From: Coriobacteriia bacterium
GTDB lineage: Bacteria > Actinomycetota > Coriobacteriia > Anaerosomatales > Anaerosomataceae
Length of the DNA stretch: 64,000 nucleotides
Assembly: GCA_030652115.1 (NCBI GenBank)
Contig: JAUSBK010000001.1
Location: 182,254 to 246,253 of the forward strand
Direction of reading: 5' to 3'
Below the pieces are notes generated by a model. It did no database searches, was not told the origin of the DNA, and worked only from the letters and a program-made list of their open reading frames with translations. The position numbers were made by a program, and so were the translations under genes. The first letter of the stretch is position 1. Each line of letters begins with the position of its first letter. Shown one piece after another: positions 23,982-33,607 of the stretch.

Positions 23982-26900
23982 CTACGCGCCGATCAGCCCC
24001 ACAACCACCTCGTGCGTCGCGCCGTCGTCGGTGAGCGCCACGCGGACGCCGGCAAGACGCTGCCCGTCGAGCGTCACGTGCGAGACGCCGCGGTTGACGC
24101 CGCGCGGGTTCTCCACGGTGATCGCATAGGTCGTGGTGCCGAACCGGTAGGTCATCGAGTAGCGGTCCCAGTCCTTCGGGATGCACGGGTCGAACTCGAG
24201 GTAGCGTGTGCCTGACTCGGCAACCGTGCGAAGGCCGAGGATGCCGCGCACCGCCACCTGGAAGAACCAGGCAGCCGAGCCGGTGTACCAGGTCCAGCCG
24301 CCGCGCCCGGTGTGCGGGTCGACCGCGTACACGTCGGCAGCCACCACGTACGGCTCCACCTTGTACCGCTCGACCGCTTCGGCATCGAGCGCATGGGAAA
24401 GCGGGTTGAGCAGGTCCAGCAGCGAGACAGCCTCGTCGCCGTCACCGAGCCGCGCATACGCGAGCGCCACCCAGAGTGCGGCATGCGTGTACTGCCCGCC
24501 GTTCTCGCGTACGCCCGGAACGTAGCCCTTGATGTAGCCGGGGTCGTGCTGCATCGCGTCGAACGGCGGGGTGAGCAGCCTGATGAGCCCGTCGTCCCAC
24601 CTGACGAGCTGCTCCTCGACGGACTCCATCGCCCGTCGAGCGCGATCGCGATCGGCCCGGCCCGAGAGCACGGACCACGCCTGTGCGATGGCGTCGATCC
24701 GGCACTCGGCGGCCTCTGCGGTGCCGAGCGGGGTGCCGTCGTCGAAGAATGCGCGCCGGTACCACGAACCGTCCCATGCGCTCCGCTCGATCGCGGAGAT
24801 GAGCGCATCGGCGCGCGCTCGCAGCTCCGCGGCGCTCTCGGTGTCGCCACGCAGCGTGCAGACCTCGGCGAACGAACGGAACGTCACGTCGAGGAACCAG
24901 GCCATCCAGACGCTTTCTCCCTGGCCGCCGATGCCGACACGGTTCATGCCGTCGTTCCAGTCGCCGCCGCCCATGAGGGGTAGGCCGTGCATGCCGAGTG
25001 GGGCGAGACGGAGCGCAGCCATGCAGTGGTCGTAGACCGACGCGACCTCGAGGGAGGGGTTCGGCTGCAAGTAGAGATCCTCGCGGTCTGCCGGGACCAC
25101 CGCGCCCTCAAGGTACGGCGTCTCCACGTCGAGAACCGAGGTGTCGCCCGTGGCGAGGACGTACTCGGCGGTCACGTAGGCGAGCCAGTGACGGTCGTCC
25201 ACGAAGCGCGTGCGCACGCCGCGGCCAGAGACCGGTTGCCACCAATGCAGCACGTCGCCTTCGGGGAACTGGCGGCGCGACGCTTCGACGATCACCTCGC
25301 GTGCCAGTTCCGGCCGAACGTCGAGCAGCGCCAGGCTGTCCTGGAGCTGGTCGCGGAAGCCGTACGCGCCGGACGACTGGTACGTGGCCGTGCGGCCCCA
25401 CACGCGACACCCGAGCGACTGGTAGAGCGCCGCACCGTTGACCATGAAGTCGAGTCTCTCGTCCGGCGTGCGCGCCTGGATCGTGCCCAACAGTCCGCGC
25501 CATTGGGCGCGTGCCGCCTCGAGCTCGGATTCAGCGGCACCGGGCGCGCGAAGGCGAGTGACGAGCGTGTGCGCGTCCTCGATCGTCTCGCACTGTCCGA
25601 GCATGAAGACCACTTCGGCGGTCTCGCCCGGCGCGAGCTCCAGCGTGTGCATGAGCGCGCCGCAGTTGTCGTGGAAGCGGCCTGTCTGCGCGCCGAGGTT
25701 GCGGCGGCGCATCGCTTCCGGGGAGGCGGGGATGCCGTTGCGGCCGATGAACTCGGTTCGGCTTGCGGTGTACGAGCCGACCATGCCGCTGCATGCGACA
25801 AACGCCGGCCGGCCGGGGAAGTCCAGGTTGAACCAGCTGTGCGCCATCAGCATCTCGGCGTTCTCGTCCCACCACGTGACCACGCGCTGCTGCGCCTTGC
25901 TGCGCGAGTCGCCGAGACTCCACTCGACGAAGTGCGTGGCCGAGATGCGACGCGCACGGTCACCCGTGTTGGTGAGCCGGAGGCGCGCGATGCGCACCGG
26001 GTCTGTGGCCGCCACGAACCAGTCGAGCGCGTGGCTGATGCCATGTCCTTCGTGCTCGAAGCGCGAGTAACCACGTCCGTGGCGCACGATGTATGTGCCG
26101 TCCTCCCACACCGGAAGTGGCGTGGGGCTCCAGAACTCGCCGGTCTCCTCGTCGCGCAGGTAGATGCACTCGCCGCTGCCGTCGGACACCGGGTCGTTGT
26201 TCCATGTCGTGATGCGGTTCTCGTGGCTGTTCTCGGCCCACGTGCACCCGATCCCGGCCTCTGATACGAGCGTGCCGAAGCGAGGCGTGGCGATCACGTT
26301 CACCCACGGCGCGGGCGTGGTCCGGCGGCCGTCCAGGACGATCACGTACTCTTCGCGTTCGCGGTTGTACCCGCCGTAGCCATTGTCGAAGGCGAGTGTC
26401 GGACGCGTGACCGGGGTGACCGGGTACGCCTCGGCCTGGCGGGTGGGCACGAAGCGGTCGGGGTGCTCGGGGTAGCGCGCGCGCTGGTTGAGCTGCAGCG
26501 CGATCGGTCCGCCGTCACCGGTGATGAGCACCCGGGAGACGCTCTCGAGCAGGTTGCGGACCTCGGGAGCCATCTGGTCGGCGGTGCGCAGGTGCACCCC
26601 GCCTGGCTTGTCCGCGAGCTGCAGCGCGTGCGCGGTGCGCATGAGCATGCGCAGCCGGCCGTCGAGTTCCGAGGAGTAGGCGCTCGGCTTGGTGTTGAGG
26701 ATGACGAGATCGGAGACGAAGCCCTTGCTCCGCCAGTACTGATGCGCGAGGAGCGCCTGGCGCACGATCGGGGCCTCCTCGAGCCGGTCGATCGTCACGA
26801 GCAGGATCGGGTCGTCGCCGGAGATGCCGATCTGCCAGAGACCCGACATCCCGAGCCGGTTCTCGGTCTCGGTCAGGCACTTGATTCGCGAGTAGGGGTC

Positions 26901-29900
26901 GGTGAGCAACATGCGCGAGGCCAGACGCAGGAACGTGACCGACTCCTCCGGCGTGATGCCGAGGTCGCGGAGCTCGATCTGGCTGGTGGACCATGCGAGG
27001 TCCGCCGCCCGCTGAGCCGTGACGATGTCCTGGTACTTCTCGGCGAGCGTGAGTGCCCGTTCGCGCGAGTCGGTCACGCCGGTGATGAAGGCCAGCCGCA
27101 CGGTCTCGCCGGGCGCCACCACCACGGGCTGGCGGATGGAGCAGATCGGGTCGAGCACCGCGCCGGTCGTGCCGGTGAGCCGGGCATCGTCCCAGATCGC
27201 GTGCGCGCTTGACGGCGTGCGCAGCCTGCCGAGGAACGCCGCCCGGTCGGTCTCGTAGGACCACGAGCAGCTGCCACGCGTCTCGCAGGCGAGCGTGTGG
27301 AAGCCCCAGTGGCGCCACTCGTGCTCCGAGCGCGGCCGGCGCGTGAACAGCAGCGTTCGGAGCTCGTCGACCGCCTCGGTCTCTACGAACAGGTTGCTGT
27401 ACGCCTTGTGTGCGTGGTCGGCGCCCTGGGGGGCGAGCGTCACCTCGAGGTACGACGTGACCTCGAGGGCGAGCGGCGCGTGGCCATGGTTGGCGATCGT
27501 GAGCCGCCGGACCTCGAGGTCGTCTTCGGGCGAGACGATCACCTCGGTGTGCGTCTCGACGTCGCCGTCGAGCCGTCGATAGTCCGCCTTGTCCGCCGAG
27601 AAGGTCACGTGGTAGTCGTCGGGCTCGGCGAGCGACGGCTGGAACGTGGCCGACCACACCCGGCCGGTCCCCACGTCTTTGAGGTAGAAGAACGTGCCCC
27701 AGCAGTCGCGGGTGATGTCCTCGCGATAGCGGGTGACGGTGCGATCCGCCCAGCGGCTGTACCCGCCGCCGCCGTTGGTGACCATGACCGAGTAGTTGCC
27801 GTTCGAGAGGAAGTGGGTGGCCGGCACGCGCGTGTCTGCCAGGGGATAGGCGCGGGTCACAGGCGGCGGCGTCTCTCGCACCGACCGCACGAACTCGACC
27901 TCTTCCACACGAGGCTGGGCGAGCTGGATGCGCCGAGGCACGCGCTCCTGGAGCAGCAGTTCGGCCGAGCCGACGAGCGGATCGGCGTGGAAGCGGTCCT
28001 GCATCCGGAAGTCGGTGAGCATGTTGCCGAGCGACACGAAGCACATGCCCTGATGGTGCGCCATGTATGCGCGTACGATGGCCCGCTCCTTGCCGGCGGG
28101 GACGCGGCCCGGCGTATAGTCGATGGCCTCGTAGAAACCGTACCGCCCCTCGGCACCCTGGCCCGCAAGCACGGCCATGTTGTCGAGTGCCTCGCGCGGC
28201 GCGACCATGAGCGCGAGCACGGTGGCGTACGGGGCGATCACCACGTCCGCCGAGAGACCCCGCTTGAGACCGAGGCCGGGAACGCCGAACGCCTGGTACT
28301 GGTAGGTGAGATCGACGTCCTTGGCGTTGAACGCGGACTCGGAGACGCCCCACGGCACGCCGCGCTGGCCGCCGTACTGGATCTGCCGACGCACGACGCT
28401 CTTATAGGTGCGGTCGAGGAGAGTAGTCGGCCAGCTCTTCATCACCAGCAGCGGCATAAGGTACTCGAACATGCTCGCGCTCCAACTCACGAGCGCCGTC
28501 CCGCCCTCGGTGCGCGTGATCGCGCGGCCGAGCCGGAACCAGTGCTCCTGCGGGATCTCGCCTTTGGCCACGGCGAGGAAGCTTGCGAGGCGGCACTCGC
28601 TCGCGAGCATGTCGTAGTAGGAGTCATCGAGGCGGCCTTCGGCGGCGTTGAAGCCGATCGAGAACAGCAGCCGACTCTCGGCGAAGAGCATCGCGAAGTC
28701 GGTGTGGTTCCACATCTCGCGAACGATGTCCGCGCCGAGGCGGAGTTCGGCGAGGAGTGCCACCGCCGCGCTGCGACCGCCGCGGATGCCGGCTGCCACG
28801 CGCACGGCCCACTGCGCGTCCCTGCTGTCGCCGGCGGCGAGGGCATCGAGCGCGACAAGCGCGGCTTCGAGGCCTTCGGCGAGTCCGACGAGGCTCGGCA
28901 CGAAGGACAGCAGCGGGGCAAGTGCCGGATCCGGCACGCCTGCATGCGAGCCGGCAGCAGCGAGGACCTCGCGCGCCCACGGCGCACAGGTTCCGATGAG
29001 ATCGAGAGGCGCGCGCACCGCTGCAGCCGCGTCGCGAACCGATGCGGCTGCCCACGCGAGTGCGACGTTCTCGGGATCGGTGCGCATGACCGACGCCATG
29101 CGGCCTTCGAGGGTGCCGGTGAGCGCGGCGAGCCCCTCGAGAGAGGCGAGCCATTCGCCGAGGTTCTCGGGCGGCGTGTCCAGGCTGATGCGGCGGATGA
29201 CCTCTTCGAGCGCCGTGCGTACCTCCGAGAGGGTGCTGTTGCCGCCCGACGACGACCGTGCGGCCTGGAGGTCCTCGAGCGCAAGCCGCACCGTATCGGC
29301 GATCCCGTCGAGTGTGGCGATGTCGAGCAGCGGCCGTTCGGAGATCTCGAGCATCGCCACGCGGAGCGCCACCAGGTGGCCGGCCAGGTTCCCCGAGTCG
29401 ACCGTGGAGACGTAGGTGGGCCTGAGCGGCTGAAGCGTGCGGGTGTCGTACCAGTTGTAGAAATGTCCGCGGAAGCGTTCCATGCCGGTGAGCGTCGTGA
29501 GCGTCCGGGAAACGCTTTCGACGAACCCCGAGACGGTCAGATAGCCGAGGTCGTAGGCGGACACGTACGACAGAAGCTGAAGACCCATGTTCGTGGGTGA
29601 GGTGCGGTGCGCCACCTCATCCTTCGGGTCCTCCTGGTAGTTGTCGGGTGCGAGGTAGTGGTCCTCGGGCGTGACGAAGGTGAGGAAGAAGCGCCAGGTC
29701 AGGCGCGCGACACGCCGCATCACGGCCACGTCGGCGGGCGTCACCCCGGAATCGGGCTCGGGCGTGGGCGTGCTGGCGCGCCACGCGGCCGCGGGCGCTC
29801 CGAGCCACAGCAGGAGGAGTGGGGTGGCCGCGAGCAGTGCCATGAGGCCGCCCGGGCCGAGCGCGATCGGCACTCCAGCCGCGAGGGTGATCGCGCCTGC

Positions 29901-32744
29901 AGGCCACATGCGTCGCACGAAGGCGGAGAGCGTCGAGTTGCCGATCCGTCGCTCGGACTCGGCGGCGGTCTCCCACTCCAGCAAGTTGCGGTGCGAGACG
30001 GTCATCCGCCACAGCGCGCGGACGATCGCGTCGGTCATCACGTACGCCTGGTGCGGCAGAACCGCGATGTTCAGCGCGTTGCGGAGCAGGTCGCGCCGCA
30101 TGTCCGAGACGAACGTCGTCCGGTCGCTGCGCGTGTCGCGCGGCGGGCGACGGAAGAGCATCGAGTCCAGGAGGCCGAAGTAGAGCGGGAAGCCGAGGAG
30201 CGCCAGCACGAGCAGGAGCCACGCCCAGTGTCCTTCGGACAGCACTGCGAATCCCGCGAGCGAGAAGAGCATCATCAGCGGCGGATAGAGACTCCGCCGC
30301 AGGTTGTCCACGATCTTCCAGCGATGCAGCCGCGTGAGCGGGTTCTTCTGGCGTCCGTCGGGCGTCGGGACGCGCGGGAAGAGCCATGGCAGGGTCTGCC
30401 AGTCACCGCGCACCCACCGGTGGAGCCGCGCGCAGTGCGAGATGTAGCTCGCGGGCTGGTCGTCGAGCACCTCCACGTCCGAGGCGAGCGCGGTCCGCAG
30501 GTACGAGCCTTCGAGCAGATCGTGGCTGAGCAGCGTGTTTTCGCAGAAGCGGTCGCCGAGCGCCGCATTGAAGATGTCCACCTCGAAGATGCCCTTGCCG
30601 GTGAACGAACCCTCGCCGAAGACGTCCTGGTACGTGTCGGACACGGCGCCCGCGTATGGGTCGACGCCGGTGATCCCCGAGTAGAGCCACGCGAACAGGC
30701 TGCCGCCAGCGCCTTCAAGTGACATCGACACCCGCGGTTGGACGAGGCCGTAGCCGCGCCGGACCGTGCGCGTGACCGGGTCGAGATGCGCGCGGTTGAG
30801 CGGGTGAGCGATCGTGGAGATCAGCTTGCGGGCGCCATCACGCGGGATCACGGTGTCGGTGTCGAGCGTGATGACGAACGTCAGGCCGGGGAAGATGGCC
30901 GAGTCAGCCTCCACGACCTCGAACGACGTATCGGTGGCACCCCGGAGCAAGCTGCAGAACTCGGTGAGCGCGCCGCGCTTGCGCTCCCAGCCCATCCAGG
31001 TCTTGTCGTGCTCGCTCCAGGTGCGTCCGCGCACGAATAGCCCGAACGGGCGCTCGCCGGGCAGACCATAGCGGTCGTTGAGGATCGCGATACCGCGACG
31101 TGCGGCCTCGATGATCGCGTCGTCCGGCGGCGTCCGCTGCTCGGCTGCGCCTTTGAGGTCCGCAAGCACCGCGAACCGGACGTTGTGGTCCGTGTTCGCC
31201 AGGTAGCCGATCTCCATGTTGTCGATGACGTGCTGGGCGGATTTCGCCGAGGTGAGCAGTGCCGTGTATACGACCATCGTGCAGTGGGCGCCCGACACGG
31301 GATGGCGGTGGTCGATCTTGGGCAGGGTCCGCGCAGGCCACACCCATGCGGCGAGGCGGTTGACCACCGTGAGGGCCACCTCGGAGACCGGCACGATCGA
31401 AAGGAGCCCGAGTGCGACCGCAGGCCAGACGCCTGCGGTCACGGCGTAGGTCACTGCGGCGCATCCGCCCGCAAGTAGGGCGGTGAACAATCCGAGCATG
31501 CTCCAGTAGATCGTGCCGCGCGCAGCGAGGGGCCCGCGGTAGAGACGCTCGCGGGGGTGTGGGCGGTAGCCGATGCTTTGCTCGAAGCGGTATCGCCCGG
31601 CGCTGACCAGGTGGAAGCCGACGTGGCTGCGCAGTCCGTCTGCGGCATCGAGGCGCAATGCCTCGAGGGAGTGGCTGATGACGGCCTCGGCGACCTCGAT
31701 CTCGCCGTGCTCGCATCGGCGGGCGATGCTCTCGATTGCGTGCCGGTAGCGGTCGCGGCTGACAAAGTCCATGCGAGGATACACGCCGGCCGGATCCTCA
31801 CGGAGGATGTGCTCAACGAGACTCGCGTCCTCGAAGAACTCGCGCCACTCGAAGCCGTCCATGAACCGGACGCTCGTGATGGCATTGGCGACCGAGACCT
31901 GATCGGCTGCCTGCTGCTGGTGCGTGGCCTGCGTGAGCCGGGCGAGATCGTCGCCGCGCCGCTCGAGCGTGGACTGAAGCCAGTCTGCGAGTGGCGCAAG
32001 CACCACCTCCTGGCCGGCGAGCCGCTGGGAGAGCCGCACGAGGAACGGCGCGGGCATCTCAACGTGAACGCCGTCGAGTTCAGCGATGCGCGCGGCGACC
32101 GCCTCGGGACCCTCATCGGCCGCGACGATGATGCTGTCCGCGAACCGGTTGCCGCCCACGATGGCCTGATGGGCCTCCAGGACACGCCGGGCCAGCCGCC
32201 GCAGGTCTTCGATGAGGGCGATGCGAAGCATGATCGGCACTGCCCAGACCTCGCCGATCGAGAGCGGCGAGACATCCTGGTAGGCCATGATGAACAGCTC
32301 GAGGCCCTCGCGGTCCACGCGCGCATCGGTGTGCACCACGAGCGCGACGATCGCCTCGAAGATGCGGGGGTACGCAGCGAACTCGCCGTTCTCGAGCCGG
32401 GGAAGCTCGGCGCCGTAGTTTGCCGGCAGGTCATCGCGGACCAGTGTGATCTGCTCCTCGATGAGGTAGAAGTTATCGAGAAGCCACTCGGCAGCGGGGG
32501 ACACGGGCGTGTCGTCGCGGATATCGGCAGCGAGTATGCGGTACACGCCGGCCAGTTCCCGCCCGGCAGCGTCGATCAGCTTCAGCAGGGGTGTCTTCGC
32601 CCGGGTGCTCGAGCGAGTCCACGCCTGGGAACGGGCGAGTTCCCGGGCCGCCGATGCGAGGCGGTCCATGCCGAGGAGTTCGCCGCGGAGAGGCTCGTCA
32701 CCTTCGGGAAGCGGAATGCCGTTCGGCTCTCCGGTGCGATCCAT
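23982..32744 (-). CDS. Giant cyclic beta-glucan synthase-like protein (NdvB/ChvB-like; GT84 + GH94 domains)
   Basis: A 2,920-residue membrane enzyme resembling cyclic beta-1,2-glucan synthases, which polymerise UDP-glucose, cyclise the chain and trim it with a phosphorylase domain. Two hydrophobic regions lie near residues 405-460 and 818-988. The glycosyltransferase core between them has LDTDTVIPRDG (about 628) and HRWVRGDWQ (about 778). A glucoamylase-like domain begins near 1010 (FLTFVTPEDHYLAPDNYQ). The C-terminal half holds two glycan-phosphorylase-type beta-sandwich regions and a GH94 catalytic domain with GGDWNDGMNRVG near 2595. The ATG at 32744 follows GGGAGAGAC. The gene stands alone. 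It is within the NdvB size range and looks intact. Osmoprotection or surface glycan synthesis is likely. Confidence 0.9.
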   Translation of the reverse strand: MDRTGEPNGIPLPEGDEPLRGELLGMDRLASAARELARSQAWTRSSTRAKTPLLKLIDAAGRELAGVYRILAADIRDDTPVSPAAEWLLDNFYLIEEQITLVRDDLPANYGAELPRLENGEFAAYPRIFEAIVALVVHTDARVDREGLELFIMAYQDVSPLSIGEVWAVPIMLRIALIEDLRRLARRVLEAHQAIVGGNRFADSIIVAADEGPEAVAARIAELDGVHVEMPAPFLVRLSQRLAGQEVVLAPLADWLQSTLERRGDDLARLTQATHQQQAADQVSVANAITSVRFMDGFEWREFFEDASLVEHILREDPAGVYPRMDFVSRDRYRHAIESIARRCEHGEIEVAEAVISHSLEALRLDAADGLRSHVGFHLVSAGRYRFEQSIGYRPHPRERLYRGPLAARGTIYWSMLGLFTALLAGGCAAVTYAVTAGVWPAVALGLLSIVPVSEVALTVVNRLAAWVWPARTLPKIDHRHPVSGAHCTMVVYTALLTSAKSAQHVIDNMEIGYLANTDHNVRFAVLADLKGAAEQRTPPDDAIIEAARRGIAILNDRYGLPGERPFGLFVRGRTWSEHDKTWMGWERKRGALTEFCSLLRGATDTSFEVVEADSAIFPGLTFVITLDTDTVIPRDGARKLISTIAHPLNRAHLDPVTRTVRRGYGLVQPRVSMSLEGAGGSLFAWLYSGITGVDPYAGAVSDTYQDVFGEGSFTGKGIFEVDIFNAALGDRFCENTLLSHDLLEGSYLRTALASDVEVLDDQPASYISHCARLHRWVRGDWQTLPWLFPRVPTPDGRQKNPLTRLHRWKIVDNLRRSLYPPLMMLFSLAGFAVLSEGHWAWLLLVLALLGFPLYFGLLDSMLFRRPPRDTRSDRTTFVSDMRRDLLRNALNIAVLPHQAYVMTDAIVRALWRMTVSHRNLLEWETAAESERRIGNSTLSAFVRRMWPAGAITLAAGVPIALGPGGLMALLAATPLLLLWLGAPAAAWRASTPTPEPDSGVTPADVAVMRRVARLTWRFFLTFVTPEDHYLAPDNYQEDPKDEVAHRTSPTNMGLQLLSYVSAYDLGYLTVSGFVESVSRTLTTLTGMERFRGHFYNWYDTRTLQPLRPTYVSTVDSGNLAGHLVALRVAMLEISERPLLDIATLDGIADTVRLALEDLQAARSSSGGNSTLSEVRTALEEVIRRISLDTPPENLGEWLASLEGLAALTGTLEGRMASVMRTDPENVALAWAAASVRDAAAAVRAPLDLIGTCAPWAREVLAAAGSHAGVPDPALAPLLSFVPSLVGLAEGLEAALVALDALAAGDSRDAQWAVRVAAGIRGGRSAAVALLAELRLGADIVREMWNHTDFAMLFAESRLLFSIGFNAAEGRLDDSYYDMLASECRLASFLAVAKGEIPQEHWFRLGRAITRTEGGTALVSWSASMFEYLMPLLVMKSWPTTLLDRTYKSVVRRQIQYGGQRGVPWGVSESAFNAKDVDLTYQYQAFGVPGLGLKRGLSADVVIAPYATVLALMVAPREALDNMAVLAGQGAEGRYGFYEAIDYTPGRVPAGKERAIVRAYMAHHQGMCFVSLGNMLTDFRMQDRFHADPLVGSAELLLQERVPRRIQLAQPRVEEVEFVRSVRETPPPVTRAYPLADTRVPATHFLSNGNYSVMVTNGGGGYSRWADRTVTRYREDITRDCWGTFFYLKDVGTGRVWSATFQPSLAEPDDYHVTFSADKADYRRLDGDVETHTEVIVSPEDDLEVRRLTIANHGHAPLALEVTSYLEVTLAPQGADHAHKAYSNLFVETEAVDELRTLLFTRRPRSEHEWRHWGFHTLACETRGSCSWSYETDRAAFLGRLRTPSSAHAIWDDARLTGTTGAVLDPICSIRQPVVVAPGETVRLAFITGVTDSRERALTLAEKYQDIVTAQRAADLAWSTSQIELRDLGITPEESVTFLRLASRMLLTDPYSRIKCLTETENRLGMSGLWQIGISGDDPILLVTIDRLEEAPIVRQALLAHQYWRSKGFVSDLVILNTKPSAYSSELDGRLRMLMRTAHALQLADKPGGVHLRTADQMAPEVRNLLESVSRVLITGDGGPIALQLNQRARYPEHPDRFVPTRQAEAYPVTPVTRPTLAFDNGYGGYNREREEYVIVLDGRRTTPAPWVNVIATPRFGTLVSEAGIGCTWAENSHENRITTWNNDPVSDGSGECIYLRDEETGEFWSPTPLPVWEDGTYIVRHGRGYSRFEHEGHGISHALDWFVAATDPVRIARLRLTNTGDRARRISATHFVEWSLGDSRSKAQQRVVTWWDENAEMLMAHSWFNLDFPGRPAFVACSGMVGSYTASRTEFIGRNGIPASPEAMRRRNLGAQTGRFHDNCGALMHTLELAPGETAEVVFMLGQCETIEDAHTLVTRLRAPGAAESELEAARAQWRGLLGTIQARTPDERLDFMVNGAALYQSLGCRVWGRTATYQSSGAYGFRDQLQDSLALLDVRPELAREVIVEASRRQFPEGDVLHWWQPVSGRGVRTRFVDDRHWLAYVTAEYVLATGDTSVLDVETPYLEGAVVPADREDLYLQPNPSLEVASVYDHCMAALRLAPLGMHGLPLMGGGDWNDGMNRVGIGGQGESVWMAWFLDVTFRSFAEVCTLRGDTESAAELRARADALISAIERSAWDGSWYRRAFFDDGTPLGTAEAAECRIDAIAQAWSVLSGRADRDRARRAMESVEEQLVRWDDGLIRLLTPPFDAMQHDPGYIKGYVPGVRENGGQYTHAALWVALAYARLGDGDEAVSLLDLLNPLSHALDAEAVERYKVEPYVVAADVYAVDPHTGRGGWTWYTGSAAWFFQVAVRGILGLRTVAESGTRYLEFDPCIPKDWDRYSMTYRFGTTTYAITVENPRGVNRGVSHVTLDGQRLAGVRVALTDDGATHEVVVGLIGA

Positions 32745-32908
32745 GCCCTGTCTCTCCCGTGTCCGAGCGACACGTGTTTGGATGCGGCGGGGTCCACTGC
32801 ACATTGTGCCACGTTTGAGCGTCGGCGGGCGTCGGGGCGAATGCGGCACGCAGGTTGCTTGGGCTGATAGCGCGGACTCCGGTGAGCCGCGCCGAACGAG
32901 GGAGTGAG

Positions 32909-33607
32909 ATGAGTCGCGCGAAGTGGATCGCCCTTGCGGTGGGGCTCGTCGTGTTGGTTGCGGCGGCGTTCACCCTGGGCTCAAGTGGCGCGTCGGGTGG
33001 CCTCGTCGACAGCGGTGAACTGCAGGAGCTCATCGGCGACGGCGTTCGGTTGGTGGACGTACGCACGGTGGGCGAGTTCGAGATGGGGCACATCCCCGGA
33101 GCGCTGAACGTGCCGATGAGCGAGCTCGCGGCAGCGGCGGCATCATGGGACACGGGCGAGCCGATTGCCCTCTACTGTGCGACGGGGAGCCGAAGCGCCG
33201 AGGCGGCGTCGACGCTGCGTTCGCTCGGTTTCGAGGCCGTTTACGACCTCGGCGGCGGTATCGCGGTCTGGGGCGGCGAGATCGAGGACGGCTCGGCGGC
33301 CGTGGCCGCGGCCGAGCCCTCGACATCGGGGCTTCCGGTGATGTACGAGTTCTACACAGACTGGTGACCCAGCTGCCAAGCGATGGCGCCTGTGGTCGAC
33401 AGGCTTACTGATGAGTACGAAGGCACCGTCGAGATTCGCGCCCTGAATGTCGAAAACGACGCGGCGGCGGCCCAGCTCGCTTCGAGTTTCCGGGTGCAGT
33501 ACGTCCCCACCTTCGTCTTCGTGGGCGCCGACGGCACCACGACCGAGACGCTCGTGGGCGAGGTCTCCGAAGATGCGCTGCGCGAGACGCTCGACGCCCT
33601 GAAGTAG
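32909..33607 (+). CDS. Rhodanese-thioredoxin fusion with in-frame TGA (probable selenocysteine), membrane-anchored
   Basis: One continuous frame of 233 codons is interrupted only by TGA at 33365-33367 (codon 153). Residues 6-23 are a signal anchor. Residues about 33-125 are a rhodanese domain (LVDVRTVGEFEMGHIPGALN; active-site loop CATGSR with Cys90; DLGGGIAVWGGE). After a short linker comes a thioredoxin fold: YEFYTDW, then the TGA, then PSCQAMAPVV, and the cis-proline YVPTFVF (Pro200). The TGA replaces exactly the first cysteine of the CxxC site, giving W-U-P-S-C with Cys156 as partner. A SECIS-like hairpin follows at 33388-33404. The start ATG 32909 has AGGGAG upstream. Reading through as selenocysteine fits far better than a nonsense mutation, because the reading frame and the thioredoxin residues after it are intact. 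An extracytoplasmic redox or sulfur-transfer role is likely. Confidence 0.85.
33388..33404 (+). promoter_or_regulatory. SECIS-like hairpin downstream of the TGA codon
   Basis: GCCTGT (33388-33393) pairs with ACAGGC (33399-33404) around the loop GGTCG. The loop starts 26 bases after the TGA. Bacterial selenocysteine insertion elements lie immediately 3' of the UGA and have a short stem and an apical loop with G in the first two positions. The E. coli fdhF loop also contains GGUC. Position and loop fit; SelB recognition cannot be proved by eye. Confidence 0.65.

Follow-up and report, generated by a model that had tools for sequence, protein, structure and literature searches.

Introduction

A thioredoxin carrying selenocysteine (Sec) in a UxxC motif and five forms of rhodanese selenoprotein, one of which is TsoB, have been catalogued (PMC13188914). 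The limits given there for a bacterial SECIS element are a stem of 4–16 bp, a loop of 3–9 nt with a G in the first two loop positions, a loop located 16–37 nt after the UGA, and an MFE of at most −7.5 kcal/mol (PMC13188914). Among rhodaneses outside the cytoplasm, periplasmic PspE converts thiosulfate into a persulfide (PMC10215317), and PMC2593051 cites work that, by its title, concerns the interaction of E. coli GlpE with thioredoxin.

The gene described here lies in a stretch of 64,000 nucleotides from a Coriobacteriia bacterium, which is referred to as the window. It encodes a rhodanese and a thioredoxin domain in one chain, and an in-frame TGA occupies the redox site of the latter. The product is probably, with good confidence, a Sec-decoded extracytoplasmic redox protein that acts as a sulfane-sulfur reductase, where this confidence is weighted to the identity of the protein over its substrate.

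Reading Frame and Domain Organization

Translation of the window gives a single frame of 232 residues at positions 32909–33607 of the plus strand once the TGA is read as a residue. The frame begins with the ATG at 32909 and is closed by the TAG at 33605–33607, and the orthologues align with it from residue 1 to the end. A likely ribosome-binding site, GAGGGAG, is located at 32898–32904, as judged from the sequence. Standard ORF calling terminates the gene at the TGA and gives an ORF of 170 amino acids.

The order within the fusion is a hydrophobic N-terminus, the rhodanese domain, a linker, and the thioredoxin domain. The hydrophobic anchor corresponds to a predicted helix of residues 4–23 (32918–32977), and the lipoboxes of orthologues are found at the aligned place. 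The rhodanese domain at residues 37–122 (33017–33274) matches PF00581 with 70.5 bits (gathering cut-off 22.2; E 1.8e-19), and its catalytic cysteine, Cys90, is encoded by TGT at 33176–33178 within C-A-T-G-S-R. The thioredoxin domain at residues 140–229 (33326–33595) is supported by thioredoxin-fold matches and by PF00085 at residues 143–229, with 58.5 bits against a gathering cut-off of 23.5 (E 7.4e-16); the thioredoxin equivalog TIGR01068 matches residues 140–229 with 57.8 bits, which is under its curated cut-off of 96.8. The motif of this domain is YTDW-U-P-S-C, where U is the TGA codon 153 at 33365–33367 and the resolving Cys156, at 33374–33376, is invariant in 30 orthologues; 79 codons follow on the 3′ side of the TGA. 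The initial annotation, which had proposed one frame with both domains, a rhodanese cysteine at residue 90, and a TGA at the first position of the thioredoxin CxxC followed by 79 codons, is confirmed in these respects.

Conservation of the In-Frame TGA

The fusion recurs among the 40 relatives searched, with exactly one TGA in each copy. In the 30 copies translated in full, the TGA is at the same place and the residues around it are conserved. When the search was extended to 398 genomes of the class, 53 full-length copies were obtained from 51 genomes, all within the order of the window and spread over 14 families, and each contained one in-frame TGA. The position of this TGA was checked in 45 distinct windows and was the same codon throughout, and cysteine was not found there in any of the 53 full-length fusions of the order. 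Outside this count is one more copy, from G128, that is broken across frames.

The ratio dN/dS on the 3′ side of the TGA is 0.07–0.27 in seven pairs, close to the values on the 5′ side, from which the sequence beyond the TGA is judged to be under purifying selection. The standard code closes the frame at the TGA, and selA, selB, and selC are missing from the window's own assembly, as would be the case for a decaying pseudogene produced by a nonsense mutation or a sequencing error. The probability of such an origin is nevertheless negligible, as one TGA is retained in each of the 53 full-length copies and selection continues past it.

Cys90 and Arg95 of the rhodanese domain are each kept in 29 of the 30 orthologues. 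In one orthologue, L026, a tyrosine is found at the position of Cys90 (YYATGSR), which suggests that this rhodanese may have lost sulfurtransferase activity.

Outside the order, a phylum-wide sample of 396 genomes yielded rhodanese-only or thioredoxin-only parts and not the full fusion. The rhodanese-only matches were from other classes of the phylum, and at least some of them extend into the anchor region. These matches, together with a stop that spares the whole rhodanese domain and the linker, would also be expected if the UGA were a selenium-dependent switch, by which the rhodanese alone is made without selenium and the full fusion with selenium, both products being useful. We consider such a switch rather improbable, since the order of the domains by itself trivially produces this layout; the switch is compatible with the main explanation, in which the UGA is decoded as Sec, and does not exclude it.

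The initial annotation had named, as a check, an alternation of cysteine and TGA at codon 153 among homologues. Such an alternation was not found within the order, where all 53 copies have TGA, but it does hold for a more distant homologue: in the fusion of Persicobacter, with the motif W-C-A-T-C, a cysteine is aligned to codon 153, and ordinary thioredoxins are likewise cysteine counterparts. A contig scan with a cysteine pattern at codon 153 returned only thioredoxin-type relatives.

Apparent fusions with an internal TAG were also obtained from G181 and G393. A recoded UAG was rejected in these cases, where the TAG is a stop between adjacent genes. These two loci (L167 and L168) each consist of a rhodanese gene and a Cys-thioredoxin gene that are adjacent and in the same frame, and the fusion may have arisen from such a layout.

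Hairpin Downstream of the TGA

A hairpin, GCCTGT-GGTCG-ACAGGC, begins 21 bases after the TGA and occupies positions 33388–33404 of the plus strand, exactly as had been noted at first. The 21-nt stretch around it folds with −10.3 kcal/mol, and only 1 of 200 shuffled sequences folds as well. With a loop of 5 nt (GGUCG in the RNA), a stem of 6 bp, GG at the start of the loop, a spacing of 26 nt between the UGA and the loop, and the folding energy given above, it is within all the limits of PMC13188914.

All six pairs of the stem are formed in each of the 45 distinct sequences, even where the bases differ. At the fourth pair, 29 sequences have U-A, 15 have C-G, and 1 has G-C, and the fifth pair occurs as G-C, C-G, U-A, A-U, and G-U. 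In the fourth pair, the third position of a proline codon is paired with the first position of codon 165, so that residue 165 follows the stem: the proline codon and its paired codon are CCT-AGG in 29 sequences, CCC-GGG in 15, and CCG-CGG in 1, and residue 165 is arginine with CCT (AGG) or CCG (CGG) and glycine with CCC (GGG), with no exceptions among the 45. An RNA element thus shapes the protein here, where the choice of arginine or glycine at residue 165 is set by the need for the SECIS stem.

When these genes were resampled with synonymous codons, the six pairs were retained in about 7% of the draws per sequence. The covariation score for 35 sequences is 0.245, compared with a mean of 0.094 after shuffling, and none of 500 shuffles reached as high a value. 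When the partner strand was slid by 1–3 bases in the same 35 sequences, pairing decreased from 100% to 20–52%. The kinship of the sequences weakens the covariation counts, but the slid-partner controls keep the same kinship. At the hairpin register of eight Cys-thioredoxins from elsewhere, 0–3 of the six pairs are present.

Two other thioredoxin genes of this type were observed in the same genome. The first (L106, G000:C7:76841-77161, minus strand) is a second Sec-thioredoxin, a lipoprotein without rhodanese and with the motif S-U-P-S-C; its hairpin, GCCCGT-CGTGA-ACGGGC, is in register with that of the fusion. The other (L107, G000:C13:107944-108231, plus strand) is a third Sec-thioredoxin candidate, which is membrane anchored with the motif T-U-V-S-C; the motif is followed by a strong hairpin containing GGUC, and a permease-like gene is nearby.

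Selenocysteine Machinery

Among 41 genomes, selB and selA were each found over cut-off in 32 and tRNA-Sec in 31, and in the relatives the three genes are mostly close together. Two tRNA-Sec matches each were observed in G005, G017, and G037, those of G037 being about 2.3 kb apart. Both congeners of the window's genome, G001 and G002, have selA, selB, and tRNA-Sec. Profile and tRNA searches of the window's own assembly did not find selA, selB, or selC (tRNA-Sec). The top matches to the selB profile there, all below cut-off, were rejected as other translation GTPases, judged by context and score to be EF-Tu beside tRNA genes and proteins like IF-2 or EF-G. At every RF01852 match that was examined with ARAGORN, an ordinary tRNA gene was found, which for the top match was tRNA-Ser; one match had scored 47.6 against a cut-off of 47.

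The own genome does contain selD, with an in-frame TGA and an adjoining yedF-like gene, yedF being named from its sequence. A strong hairpin was observed after the TGA of this selD gene (L047/L095, G000:C3:160143-161060). In G002, selA follows yedF, and the own contig C3 is syntenic with G002 as far as yedF. Past yedF, the remaining 3.4 kb or so up to the end of C3 contain a PIN-type gene and a portion of a large gene, whose homologue in G001 lies a few kb from selA. Because the genes in question are linked in a single block that would lie past the end of C3, and because two congeners have them, their absence is probably an assembly gap near this end, which is the simplest reading of indirect evidence. 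The draft assembly of G013 (96% complete) likewise has the TGA fusion and lacks selA, selB, and selC, while G038 (99% complete) has neither these genes nor, at the threshold used, the fusion, as expected. Of the sel genes sought to support the proposed selenoprotein, selD was thus present in the own genome and selA, selB, and selC in most relatives; the last three were missing from the own assembly, so that the absence of selB and tRNA-Sec, named at the outset as grounds for refutation, literally applies to this assembly.

The same absence would be compatible with a UGA read as another amino acid through codon reassignment or suppression. This is highly improbable. In eight orthologues (L012, L013, L015, L016, L025, L028, L031, and L033), a TGA terminates the fusion gene that also carries the internal TGA, which argues that UGA is still a stop; the covarying hairpin, the sel genes of the relatives, and the cysteine opposite residue 153 in Persicobacter also stand against such a reading. 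We therefore return to Sec. The conservation of the TGA, the purifying selection downstream of it, the hairpin, and the selA, selB, and tRNA-Sec of relatives agree with the initial proposal for residue 153, and UGA-153 is almost certainly decoded as selenocysteine, as far as comparison of sequences can tell.

Cellular Location and Gene Neighborhood

A lipobox closes the hydrophobic stretch in 8 of the 30 orthologues, from which both domains should lie outside the cytoplasm; the membrane-anchored, extracytoplasmic placement proposed at the outset is thereby upheld as a prediction. In G029 and G115, which belong to two families, ccdA is located directly 3′ of the fusion; these were the only two such cases among the loci searched. 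The own genome encodes a CcdA homologue (57% identical) and two further DsbD-type proteins. The adjacency of ccdA in two families suggests that electrons for the fusion may be delivered through the membrane.

On the other side, a minus-strand gene at 23982–32849 of the window encodes a protein of 2955 residues containing glucoamylase and GH94 domains. In 18 of 19 loci the fusion has a GH94-type gene as its divergent neighbor, an arrangement that is probably plain synteny and no clue to function.

Proposed Reaction

The following course of events may be considered. By binding the hairpin located 21 nt past UGA-153, SelB would deliver Sec-tRNA-Sec, so that Sec is inserted in place of a stop, and the N-terminus would anchor the fusion in the membrane with both domains outside the cytoplasm. 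Thiosulfate, polysulfide, or a persulfide would donate a sulfur atom to Cys90. Sec153 would then attack the persulfide of Cys90 and, together with Cys156, would release sulfide and form a selenenylsulfide. Finally, cytoplasmic thioredoxin would supply the electrons with which a CcdA-type membrane protein returns the U-P-S-C site to its reduced state. Precedents for this scheme are the reaction of PspE with thiosulfate (PMC10215317) and the work on GlpE and thioredoxin that PMC2593051 cites.

That the protein is in this manner a self-contained sulfane-sulfur reductase has, in our estimation, an even chance. The more specific relay within the molecule from persulfide to selenol, in which sulfane sulfur or selenium is reduced outside the cytoplasm with electrons arriving via CcdA, is put forward tentatively. 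The predicted structure has a pTM of 0.54, so that the orientation of the domains, and with it any contact between Cys90 and Sec153, is uncertain. If true, a persulfide-to-selenol relay within one chain has not been described previously, and it would be a use of selenium in the breakdown of persulfides outside the cell.

The selenoprotein could also act through its thioredoxin half as a general disulfide reductase outside the cytoplasm, for example on cytochrome c or stress-damaged proteins, and use its rhodanese half chiefly for binding or sensing. Such a function is in keeping with the thioredoxin-only Sec lipoproteins in the same genome, the ccdA neighbors, which fit disulfide reduction equally well, and the orthologue L026 without Cys90. 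It is nonetheless unlikely, considering that Cys90 and Arg95 are so widely kept among the orthologues and that the fusion itself has been maintained across 14 families.

Comparison with Known Systems

A Sec rhodanese-thioredoxin fusion is absent from the 2026 inventory of 119 families and subfamilies (PMC13188914), and no paper on a rhodanese-thioredoxin fusion was found in the open-licence literature. The Sec-containing fusion appears to be previously undescribed. The initial claim of a probable new type of selenoprotein is narrowed to that of a new variant, as Sec-thioredoxins are a known class and Persicobacter has the fusion in a cysteine version. The selenoproteome gains a domain architecture that is conserved through one order, at genes that gene callers would truncate.

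Compared with the known Sec-thioredoxin (PF00085, UxxC), the present protein has the same thioredoxin fold with Sec first in the active-site motif, but it has an active-type rhodanese in front and is exported with an anchor. TsoB (NF045694, rhodanese/DsbD fusion-like) is likewise a selenoprotein with a rhodanese part and a thioredoxin-like part; however, TsoB is listed with two Sec residues in UxxxxU and a profile length of 572, whereas the fusion has one in-frame TGA and scores 42.6 bits against a cut-off of 805, with only the thioredoxin-like part matched. The rhodanese-like selenoprotein forms 1–4 (PMC13188914), including NF041203, to which the fusion scores 35.3 bits against a cut-off of 115, also place a rhodanese in a selenoprotein. 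They are listed as rhodanese-domain families with UxxS, UxxG, or CxU, whereas the present fusion has cysteine (TGT) in its rhodanese and carries Sec in the thioredoxin domain. The E. coli PspE is an exported rhodanese of single-domain type that acts on thiosulfate (PMC2593051, PMC10215317) and, unlike the present fusion, has neither a thioredoxin domain nor Sec. A further likeness in layout is given by plasmid pPP1 of Persicobacter psychrovividus (L195), where a lipobox, a rhodanese, and a thioredoxin are in one frame as here; it differs in having W-C-A-T-C instead of W-U-P-S-C, with 26% identity and no hairpin at this register. As read from its sequence, this Cys fusion shows that the rhodanese-thioredoxin combination is older or arose more than once.
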